This document shows, piece after piece, positions 11,326-14,032 of a stretch of DNA of 64,000 nt. Position 1 is the stretch's first letter. Every line of letters begins with the position of its first letter. The stretch comes from a virus. The notes under the pieces are model-generated. The model was not told the origin of the DNA. It was given only the letters and a program-made list of their open reading frames with translations, and made no database searches. Location: the IMG/VR virus record IMGVR_UViG_3300030060_004050, positions 1 through 64,000 of that record; one strand, given 5' to 3'. Position numbers and translations under genes: made by a program.

Positions 11326-12558
11326 ATGGCACTAGAATTTTCAGAGATTGCGACTCTTGGATGCCTATTCTACAGTGAAAGAGAATTGAAAAAAGCAGCG
11401 AGTGACGTAGGGACACTCGCTAAGTTTACTGCTACTGTTCGAGATAAAGTAAACAAAGATCGATTCGTCAAGTTCGGAACAGGAAAAGCAGAGTTCATTC
11501 GTGCCATGGATCCCACAAATAAAGTGGTTCTTGATGATATGTGTAGAGGTATCTCTGCTGCACTTGCAATCAAGAAGTGGATGACTCAGCACCACAACGA
11601 ACCAACAGACACAAAAATTAAAGCCGGATACATGACTGGTAATGTCTGGCCTTCTCCCGTCGATGCATTTAAAATCGATGCGTTTGGTATGGCAGACTAC
11701 AACTCCTCGGACTTCATTCTATACACCGGGAGACAGGGAACCAACGAATACTACTATGGCATTTCTCTCAAGAAGAAAAATGTAGAACATGCTGCCGATC
11801 CCACCCTAATTAATAAGGCATTTGATTCTGTCATGGACGGTAGAGAATTTGACAAGATCAAAGATGACATCAAGACACTGAGAGTCTCTTGGTTTGCGAA
11901 CAAAGTACGAGAGGCGAGTAAGCAAGGACTAATCCAAATAGAATCCGCACACGAAAAACTACCAGATGAAAAACTTATACTTTCAAGTCCTGCTGGAACC
12001 AAAAAATCATACCCTAATATCAAAGGTTTGTTGAAGGAAGGGTATGAGTCTGGTAATGGGTTTAGAACGTGGATGAACCGACAGGTTGGTAGGGGAGATC
12101 TCTATAGTTCTATGATGAAAATTATTGAACCTCACATGGAGATGTTTGCAAACTCCTTGATTAACTTAGTTCTCAAGGTAAATCTAAACGACAAACTAAA
12201 CGCAAACAAAGATCTTAACAAGTACTATTTTGGATTTGCACTAGCAACTGGGGTAGGACAGATGAAAAAGGACGTTCCTTTCGTTGGTACGGGATCTGTG
12301 TACCCACAGGAGAGTGTCTTGTGTGCTTTGAGTCATCTTGCAAGTTCTAAGAAACCATTCAAGATGGTTCAGGTTCCAAACCCCGCCGGCGATGAATCAG
12401 ACGCAGCAAAGGTGTTCTTTGAAATTCGCAAGGGTAATGTTGCTATTTTAGATCTGCAAGTTCGCTATAAAGGTTCTTTCACTGCACAACCTCAGTTCCA
12501 GGCATTCCTCACCAAAGACTTTAAGAGAATTATCGCTGGCGAATGCGTTAATCCTTGA
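11326..12558 (+). CDS. unknown protein, possible PD-(D/E)XK nuclease-like core
   Basis: This protein has 410 residues with no leader peptide. Residues about 125-150 read ADYNSSDFILYT, then YYYGISLKKK. An acidic residue followed after a strand by S-x-KKK is reminiscent of the D...(E/S)xK core of restriction-endonuclease-like folds, but other readings are possible. The rest is mixed alpha/beta and basic. AAGGAG precedes the start. It lies directly upstream of the 23S-like RNA gene, and the RNA promoter box begins one base after its stop. Confidence 0.6.
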   Translation: MALEFSEIATLGCLFYSERELKKAASDVGTLAKFTATVRDKVNKDRFVKFGTGKAEFIRAMDPTNKVVLDDMCRGISAALAIKKWMTQHHNEPTDTKIKAGYMTGNVWPSPVDAFKIDAFGMADYNSSDFILYTGRQGTNEYYYGISLKKKNVEHAADPTLINKAFDSVMDGREFDKIKDDIKTLRVSWFANKVREASKQGLIQIESAHEKLPDEKLILSSPAGTKKSYPNIKGLLKEGYESGNGFRTWMNRQVGRGDLYSSMMKIIEPHMEMFANSLINLVLKVNLNDKLNANKDLNKYYFGFALATGVGQMKKDVPFVGTGSVYPQESVLCALSHLASSKKPFKMVQVPNPAGDESDAAKVFFEIRKGNVAILDLQVRYKGSFTAQPQFQAFLTKDFKRIIAGECVNP

Positions 12559-12567
12559 TATATAAAA
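12559..12567 (+). promoter_or_regulatory. late-promoter-like box for the 23S-like RNA
   Basis: TATATAAAA starts at the base after the stop codon at 12558. It closely matches the box before the major capsid gene (62950-62958), so the RNA may be made late and strongly. Confidence 0.55.
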
Positions 12568-12780
12568 GACAACCTCCCGCCTGTGACTCTGAGCGGGAGG
12601 TCGTCTACTATGATGACGGTCGTAAGGTAGCGAAATTCCTTGGTGTAGATTAAAACACAGAATAATCTACACCGTGCATGGATGGCGCAACGTTCTGGAA
12701 CACTGTCGCCAAGTTGCCCGGCCGCCTGATTTTGTATAATTGAAAAAACGACGGCACCACTTAAGGCGTCGTCGTTTTTT
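12568..12780 (+). ncRNA. 23S rRNA domain IV (H69-H71) mimic RNA
   Basis: This is a non-coding RNA of about 213 nt. Bases 12599-12712 align with E. coli 23S rRNA about 1906-1990. They contain a helix 69 hairpin (stem 12599-12605 with 12615-12621, loop containing ACTAT). Next is a run of 20 identical bases, TAAGGTAGCGAAATTCCTTG, at 12623-12642 (helix 70 region). Helix 71 is rebuilt as a perfect 11-bp stem (12642-12652 with 12663-12673). The conserved strand TGCATGGATGGCGCAACG follows at 12675-12692, then CACTGTC at 12701-12707. TGGCG (12683-12687) can pair with CGCCA (12707-12711). A GC-rich 5 prime hairpin (12568-12605) and a terminator (12743-12780) bound it. Stems differ from rRNA yet still pair, which points to a selected structure rather than a chance fragment. 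The function is unknown. Confidence 0.85.
12743..12780 (+). terminator. terminator of the 23S-like RNA
   Basis: AAAAAACGACG pairs perfectly with CGTCGTTTTTT (11 bp), giving a hairpin that ends in a six-T run on the plus strand. Confidence 0.9.
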
Positions 12781-12814
12781 CGAGTTAAAGTATTGGTTTC
12801 TTTTACTCACTGTT

Positions 12815-12823
12815 ATATGTATA
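12815..12823 (-). promoter_or_regulatory. late-promoter-like box facing the RNA gene
   Basis: TATACATAT on the minus strand with no minus-strand gene downstream before 12558. A transcript from it would first meet the terminator hairpin read backwards and then run antisense to the 23S-like RNA. Confidence 0.35.
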
Positions 12824-12849
12824 AAACCACAGTAAAAAGAGAACACAAA

Positions 12850-12871
12850 AAACCCCTCTTACGAGGGGTTT
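12850..12871 (-). terminator. terminator for the gene at 12901-13944
   Basis: On the minus strand AAACCCCTC, loop GTAA, GAGGGGTTTTTTG. It lies 30 bp past the stop at 12901. Confidence 0.85.
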
Positions 12872-12900
12872 CTTGTTTAAATTTAAAATTATTTTTCGGA

Positions 12901-13944
12901 TCAACCTGGTCCTCCGGGACCACCGGGACCACCACCACCGCCGGGAGGATCACCACCACCAGTGTCATCGCCTCCGGGAGGATCACCACCACCAGTGTCA
13001 TCACCACCATCATCAACATCATCCCCTGGCGGTTCCTCGGGAGGATCACTTGGCGGAACTGGAGGTCCACCTGATTCGGTGTTTTGGTGTTCGTTATTCT
13101 CCAACCAATCCAAAAGTTCTGCACCCAACCAGATTGCACCTGCAACGGCAGCAGCGATGAGTACAGCCTGGAACCAAGCGGGTTGCCTGTCCCACCAACC
13201 CGCAAGTCCGCCTTCTGGTGCGTTCCAATCAGAGGGTTCGTCTGGCACCCATGCTCCATCGTCATACACACCATCACCGTCAGGATCTGCTACCCATTGA
13301 CCGTTAGCGAGTCTACGGACAACGTATGGTACTCCGAGGTATTGAGGTGGATTTCCGGGAAGAAATTCAATGTAAAGTCCACCACCATGAGCGATGTGTG
13401 CAGGCATACCGTTTCCAGCAGGAACGCTGAACAGTGGAATACCCATGTCATCGAACATTAAAAATTGCCAGTTACCGGGAATTGGTTGAACTTGACCGTT
13501 CATATAAATGTACTGTTGTGCGATTGCACCGTCAGGACCGATGACTCGGTAGATCTTAATAAGATTACCACCGATTTCAATTTCTACTAGGTTTACCTGA
13601 TAACCTGCTGGTAGTGGGTAAAGTCCGTTTGCAGTGAACCAATCGATCAACCACTGTGGTAGAACTTGAACGGGAACACCCTCTGAGTCTTGTGTACCAT
13701 TGTCATCAACAATAACACCACCACTCTCTACTGGTCTAATTGTAAGATTTGGCTTTGATGGTCTTTTACCCATAATAGGACCTGGTGGGACATTGGGTGC
13801 AAGTTTAAGGCCCTGGTCGCCACCTGCTTGCTCAAACATAGTACCATAATACATCCACCTCATCGGGGAAGGTGATGAAAGTACTTTCTCTAGTGCATCT
13901 TCAAACTGTTCTTGAAGCATTCGTTTAAATGAATAGTCGCTCAT
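12901..13944 (-). CDS. putative capsid-targeted protein with membrane segment and Gly-Pro-Asp tail
   Basis: This protein has 347 residues. The leader MSDYSFKRMLQE-Q has an LQE-Q site at 10-13. A beta-rich body follows, and DPDGDGVYD (about 220-228) is a calcium-type loop. A hydrophobic helix (AVLIAAAVAGAIWLGAELL) at about 260-280 could span a membrane, and the final 60 residues are repeats of Gly, Asp and Pro. A protein that is packaged, injected and inserted into the host membrane would fit this layout, but this is inference. The start at 13944 has GGAG upstream. Confidence 0.6.
   Translation of the reverse strand: MSDYSFKRMLQEQFEDALEKVLSSPSPMRWMYYGTMFEQAGGDQGLKLAPNVPPGPIMGKRPSKPNLTIRPVESGGVIVDDNGTQDSEGVPVQVLPQWLIDWFTANGLYPLPAGYQVNLVEIEIGGNLIKIYRVIGPDGAIAQQYIYMNGQVQPIPGNWQFLMFDDMGIPLFSVPAGNGMPAHIAHGGGLYIEFLPGNPPQYLGVPYVVRRLANGQWVADPDGDGVYDDGAWVPDEPSDWNAPEGGLAGWWDRQPAWFQAVLIAAAVAGAIWLGAELLDWLENNEHQNTESGGPPVPPSDPPEEPPGDDVDDGGDDTGGGDPPGGDDTGGGDPPGGGGGPGGPGGPG
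12943..13002 (-). repeat. 33-bp period tandem repeat in the C-terminal tail
   Basis: A 27-bp unit at 12943-12969 is repeated exactly at 12976-13002. It encodes two copies of an 11-residue Asp-Asp-Thr-Gly3-Asp-Pro2-Gly2 unit. Confidence 0.8.
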
Positions 13945-13987
13945 GTATTTTTCTCCATACTCGGTAGGATTACCTATTGATTGTACA

Positions 13988-13996
13988 TTATGTATA
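13988..13996 (-). promoter_or_regulatory. late-promoter-like box
   Basis: TATACATAA on the minus strand, 43 bp before the ATG at 13944. It is paired with a divergent copy at 14033-14041. Confidence 0.55.
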
Positions 13997-14032
13997 AGAC
14001 TATTTTCTTCAACGAACCAAACTCAACTCTGT

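Follow-up and report, generated by a model that had tools for sequence, protein, structure and literature searches.

T4-like phages encode a family of structured RNAs that are derived from, or locked to, helices H69-H71 of 23S rRNA. One version lies in the window, a 64,000-nucleotide stretch of virus DNA (positions 1 to 64,000 of IMGVR_UViG_3300030060_004050), and 13 more were recovered from other public viral contigs. The best explanation, to which we assign a probability of about 0.45, is that these elements specify widespread antisense small RNAs that would pair in trans with the intersubunit core of 23S rRNA, straddling H71, and so regulate how ribosomes are assembled or their subunits joined during infection.

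The element in the window

The virus record that holds the window is 118,538 bases long and contains T4-like portal, terminase, gp32-type SSB and baseplate genes. The best annotated relatives of its portal protein, at ∼54% identity, come from cyanophages; the record contains no psbA, making a cyanophage less likely, and no tRNA genes. The element occupies a noncoding block (Table 1) flanked by a + strand gene whose end is at 12558 and a - strand gene whose end is at 12901. An ORF scan of the region found no frame of at least 60 aa, and its predicted fold is far more stable than those of shuffled sequences (z = -5.8). The adjoining - strand gene (12901-13944) encodes a 347-aa Gly/Pro/Asp-rich protein with no Pfam or PHROG match; similar-sized genes occupy the equivalent position in three related loci (L002, L004 and L006; viral loci are given L numbers throughout). 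Next to the bidirectional terminator, the segment TTTTACTCACTGTTATATGTATAAAAC (12783-12835) is conserved in L002, L004, L006 and L029 irrespective of gene neighbours and may be a second small RNA or a promoter.

Table 1. Features of the element, in window coordinates
Feature	Position	Strand	Description
T-rich tract	12559-12567	-	TTTTATATA, immediately past HP1; tail of the - strand intrinsic terminator. The + strand text, TATATAAAA, is the 'late-type box' of the sequence-only reading
HP1, 13-bp hairpin	12568-12605 (arms 12568-12580 and 12593-12605)	-	Terminator stem of the - strand RNA
Linker	12606-12616		ACTAT at 12607-12611, like the H69 loop; retained in about half of the lineages
P1 strand a	12617-12623		CGGTCGT, equal to 23S 1920-1926, last positions vary; partner 12719-12724
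Core 1	12624-12639		+ text AAGGTAGCGAAATTCC, identical to 23S 1927-1942; - strand RNA GGAAUUUCGCUACCUU, its complement
Hairpin at the H71 place	12640-12674 (stem 12642-12652 / 12663-12673)		11 bp; sequence unrelated to H71
Core 2	12675-12692		+ text TGCATGGATGGCGCAACG, like 23S 1963-1980; - strand RNA complementary
CACTGTC	12701-12707		Like 23S 1989-1994; longer form GCACTGTCTCC in L008, L013 and L030
P1 strand b	12719-12724		CGGCCG; closes the element
Degenerate late box	12731-12738	-	TATACAAA, 6 nt before P1 strand b; TATAAATA or TAAATA at the equivalent place in relatives
Bidirectional terminator hairpin	12743-12780	both	T6 on both strands; element boundary in the window's subclade

Positions 12617-12707 match the 3′ strand of H69, H70 and residues 1963-1980 of 23S rRNA, with an unrelated hairpin substituting for H71. 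In blastn, real 23S genes align over 30 bases at 93% identity, with the same DNA sense (E = 5e-3, 2.3 Gb searched). In the 23S structure the retained segments correspond to the 3′ strands of H69, H67 and H64 and to the H70 core, which is mostly unpaired. When the phage elements are compared with 23S domain IV H69-H71 (RF02541), core 1 is identical, core 2 is similar, and the segment CACUGUCUCC of some versions resembles 1988-1997. H71, by contrast, belongs to the 23S region lost from the phage elements, being absent or replaced by unrelated sequence, and the 5′ strands of H64, H67 and H69 are also absent; the elements have a closing helix and a terminator of their own and are probably transcribed mostly from the opposite strand.

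The sequence-only reading, which regarded the block as a sense-strand mimic of H69-H71, had placed the 23S likeness correctly, and several of its details are borne out: the identity through helix 70 (AAGGTAGCGAAATTCCTTG at 12624-12642), the 11-bp stem replacing H71, the conserved strand of core 2 followed by CACTGTC, the strong terminator and the lack of an open frame. Its H69 hairpin, late box and sense of transcription require revision. The covariance-model check that it proposed fails formally: RF02541 gave no match in 11500-14000 even at E 10, and scored an E. coli fragment, the positive control, at 594 bits. The existence of a family supersedes this check. The box (TATATAAA, 12559-12566) is a partial match only, and the same bases form the terminator T-tract of the other strand.

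A family of relatives in T4-like phages

Eight DNA-pattern scans with different queries identified 14 versions of the element, the window's included, in public viral contigs; the carriers are T4-like phages from water samples. Their common layout runs from the strong hairpin HP1 through GGUCnn, AAGGUAGCGAAAUUCC, a spacer at the exact position of H71 and GCAUGAAURGCGUAA, frequently with CACUGUCUCC, to a closing strand that covaries. HP1, GGUCnn and AAGGUAGCGAAAUUCC (at most one change) are present in all versions, the sequence following the spacer in most, and CACUGUCUCC in several. Type A, the window's subclade (window, L002, L004, L006 and L029), has the bidirectional terminator in common and, except for L029, the hairpin at the H71 place. 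Type B (L008, L013, L015, L016, L021, L022, L023, L024 and L030; L014 and L017-L020 are near-copies of L013) mostly has a spacer of about 2-7 nt there, and one of ∼40 nt in L024. Core 2 is present in L021-L024, L029 and L030 even though it lay outside the pattern by which these were found, and for that reason it constitutes independent evidence.

HP1 varies in sequence among lineages, and its pairing is always kept. P1 is formed across the family by GGUCnn and the 3′ strand, and P1 strands of the same lineage fit each other better than swapped ones (48/20,000 permutations for the sense strand, 66/20,000 for the antisense strand). Neither C1925 nor U1926 of 23S is ever matched by the two bases that follow GGUC, which counts against the antisense reading. 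Folding of the H69 hairpin proposed in the sequence-only reading is possible in the window, L004 and L006; L029, L008, L022 and the remaining versions do not form it. Across the family the GGUC strand is engaged in P1 instead, and the H69 hairpin is not a family feature.

Differing gene neighbourhoods among the lineages exclude a single copied contaminant, and the 13 further versions with the same layout exclude chance and chimeric assembly. In this respect the sequence-only reading was right: the element is a phage-encoded structured RNA under RNA-level selection in many phages, and is not contamination.

Beyond these versions the searches were negative. Matches at L007, L009-L012, L025, L028, L031 and L032 lack a second core and were rejected as chance, and weak profile matches in phages phiW-14 and phiM12 fall within coding genes. 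A pattern scan of 84,980 bacterial and archaeal species, one genome each, returned only genuine bacterial or organelle-like 23S, and blastn of the window and L013 elements against 50,697 phage records returned only real or contaminating 23S and weak chance matches. Neither the window's element nor those of six relatives matched any Rfam family at the gathering score, and the phage-RNA profile did not find the element in eight T4-like isolates (T4, HTVC008M, Cr30, phiM12, S-PM2, phiW-14, KVP40 and P-SSM2). An intergenic segment at L001:3588-3620 (IMGVR_UViG_2600255149), GTCGTAAGGTAGCGAAATTCCTTGTCGAGT, matches ∼29 bases of 23S H70-H71 with two changes and has no second core; the gene adjoining it resembles those of Streptococcus phages (BLAST).

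Several element-bearing contigs contain other RNA-related genes. L021:8678-9235 and L022:3287-3841 encode a protein that by eye resembles SpoU/TrmH-type RNA methyltransferases, and both loci have tRNA genes together with the element. tmRNA genes are found at L015:4997-5199 (permuted, Rfam) and L030:11027-11346 (marked permuted by ARAGORN), and L015:3091-3266 gives a group I intron-like match scoring under the Rfam gathering threshold. The permuted tmRNAs fit alphaproteobacterial hosts, among others, without proving them.

Strand of transcription

Promoters, terminators, HP1 wobbles and tRNA co-orientation point to transcription opposite to the 23S sense. In 7 of 13 lineages the antisense strand carries the late-promoter core TAAATA no more than 20 nt outside P1 (background 0.0068, chance about 1e-12), against one of 13 with the core on the sense side of HP1; perfect copies of TATAAATA stand 4-5 nt from P1 on the antisense strand in L016, L022 and L024. 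Only on the antisense side does a T-tract come after HP1, with at least five T in the nine bases past the hairpin in 12 of the 14 versions. A generic terminator scan reported HP1 in L022 and L023; it missed the HP1 of L013 and of the window because their tails or loops fall under its thresholds. Read on the sense strand, A-C is among the non-Watson-Crick pairs of HP1 in four independent lineages and G-U never is, and therefore G-U wobbles occur only on the antisense strand. The fold energy of HP1 is -25.5 kcal/mol on the - strand versus -21.0 kcal/mol on the + strand. In all seven loci that have tRNA or tmRNA genes (L008, L015, L016, L021, L022, L023 and L030) these run in the antisense direction, which is supportive without amounting to seven independent coin tosses, because same-strand genes cluster. 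The minimum free energies (MFE), the P1 wobble test and the duplex test of the 1979-2002 segment did not discriminate between strands.

Most of this evidence comes from type B, in which most lineages have their own antisense promoter and terminator, and is transferred to the window, where the terminator is present and the promoter degenerate. Signals in type A are mixed. The antisense late box matches at six of eight positions in the window and is absent in L029, which instead has a perfect TATAAATA on the sense strand; the bidirectional terminator stands between the type A element and any upstream antisense promoter. The HP1 wobbles favour the antisense strand, and the L029 box favours the sense strand. 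Taken together, these signals indicate that the family is probably transcribed mostly opposite to the 23S sense, and that its RNA would usually be a 23S complement. The description of the block as lying in the rRNA sense is accurate for the DNA text but probably not for most transcription of the family.

The main rival to the antisense reading is a sense-strand mimic, in which a copy of the H69-stem/H70/1963-1980 surface titrates a factor that reads that surface, such as an RlmD-type m5U1939 methyltransferase, RRF or a host toxin cleaving H69/H70. Core 1 contains the entire U1939 loop, sense-strand G-U pairs occur in the P1 helices of the window, L004, L006 and L013, a strong sense terminator ends at 12780, and sense late boxes are present in L029 (TATAAATA) and, as the partial match TATATAAA, in the window. 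Nucleases acting at H69 also exist, as illustrated by a Pseudomonas enzyme that cleaves eukaryotic H69 (PMC13189344). The promoter and terminator bias, HP1 wobbles and tRNA co-orientation nevertheless indicate the other strand, and neither the H69 loop hairpin nor H71 is conserved. We consider the mimic unlikely, and the original proposal of one probably wrong for the family, although in the window's own subclade the perfect sense late box of L029 means that it could still apply. The more specific suggestion of an RluD/TlyA-type decoy fares poorly: it needs an H69 hairpin, which the family does not conserve, and most relatives also lack H71.

Predicted pairing with 23S rRNA and its proposed consequences

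When phage RNAs were cofolded with U1967-type 23S (RNAcofold), the antisense RNA gave ∼30-50 kcal/mol of binding in every lineage, versus ∼1-12 kcal/mol for the sense strand. The predicted duplexes of the window, L013, L016 and L022 span 23S 1919-1924, ∼1927-1944 and ∼1963-1985, and H71 stays folded; pairing of this kind would explain both the missing H71 and a hairpin opposite it. Most of the core sequence is also complementary to the 23S of E. coli K-12. A profile built from the phage RNAs detects real 23S genes on the opposite strand, aligning both cores and treating H71 as an insertion (E = 7e-10 in G003, whose 23S pattern is on the + strand). Most phage elements carry U1967 (GCAUGAA), which is rare in bacterial 23S: in one class the exact pattern occurs in 6 of 240 genomes and in a second class in 1 of 229, among them small (1.2 Mb) genomes with GCATGAATGGCGTAACGA...CACTGTCTCC in their 23S. 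The presence of U1967 in most of the phages is consistent with these RNAs tracking the rRNA of a particular host. Eight distinct changes from 23S keep G-U pairing, against 2 transitions that break pairing, a small excess that is suggestive only.

From the computed family, conserved segments, covarying closing helix, strand bias of promoters and terminators, and favourable predicted duplex with H71 folded, we infer pairing inside the cell and an effect of that pairing. The gene, ordered as late promoter, closed domain P1 and intrinsic terminator HP1, would produce a small RNA of ∼110-170 nt, most likely from the - strand between about 12730 and 12559. This RNA would be complementary to 23S at 1919-1924, 1926-1944, 1963-1980 and part of 1981-1997, and its short linker or own hairpin opposite H71 would let it pair on both H71 flanks. 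Most likely it would sequester H70 and the 3′ strands of H64, H67 and H69 while 23S/50S is newly made or free, since the pairing sites are buried in the finished subunit; assembled ribosomes would be spared for the same reason. New 50S assembly (domain IV folding) or subunit joining would be blocked, and the production of new ribosomes would stop late in infection. A point against the antisense reading is that a late, ribosome-harming RNA has no obvious benefit for the phage.

Other explanations account for parts of these observations. The element could be a structured RNA that uses its rRNA-like parts to bind a shared partner, either a protein or a phage RNA, as might a translation-related RNA produced along with the tRNA cluster; 23S pairing and surface mimicry would then both be secondary. 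Co-location with tRNA arrays and tmRNA and the closed, covarying P1 domain are consistent with this idea, but it leaves unexplained why only one 23S region is retained and why the gap falls exactly at H71, and we regard it as distinctly improbable. Guide-like complementarity to a multicopy host gene could also reflect a guide RNA for a nuclease that cuts host rDNA or rRNA; no conserved nuclease gene was found among the element's neighbours, however, and a gap at H71 is sensible for an RNA partner but not for DNA, which makes such a guide very improbable. The 23S similarity within a virus contig that the Rfam LSU model does not match might have signified a neutral captured rRNA fragment, a chimera or contamination. 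That explanation is refuted by the existence of the family: fourteen versions on separate contigs, in different neighbourhoods, with conserved cores, replaced stems and a covarying P1.

The antisense small RNA that we favour resembles known bacterial and phage trans-acting antisense sRNAs in its order of promoter, structured RNA and intrinsic terminator and in its complementarity to a target RNA, the extended form of which was found by both the profile and RNAcofold; it differs in that the target would be structured, universal 23S rRNA and not an mRNA. Archaeal and eukaryotic C/D and H/ACA guide RNAs are trans-acting RNAs that pair with rRNA, as the phage RNA would, but the phage element has no such boxes by eye, belongs to a bacterial virus and has no known partner proteins. 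T4 species 1 and 2 RNAs (rnaC, rnaD) are comparable as small stable RNAs of a T4-like tRNA cluster. In T4 rnaD (L048:1254-1372) and its homologues L049-L053, an invariant GGGUCGCUACCGG hairpin contains UCGCUACC, which is complementary to 23S 1929-1936; the remainder of rnaD is unrelated to the phage element. Homology with rnaC or rnaD was rejected; the longer rnaD match AAGGAAUUGCGUUA is not conserved among rnaD homologues and the phage profile has no T4 match. The 8-base coincidence between UCGCUACC and 23S has a roughly estimated probability of 0.04, and the complementarity is a possible clue to the unexplained T4 species 2 RNA.

A literature search, which reached few subscription-journal papers and no preprints, found no described case, and a viral RNA of this kind seems to be undescribed. 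Antisense or mimic alike, it would be a virus RNA whose target is the functional region most conserved in the large ribosomal subunit; if the antisense reading is true, it would be a viral antisense RNA directed at the ribosome itself. Such an RNA would reveal a new phage route to acting on ribosomes, would supply a natural tool to probe 50S assembly, and would offer a way of testing the stable RNAs of T4-like tRNA clusters, which have long lacked an explanation.
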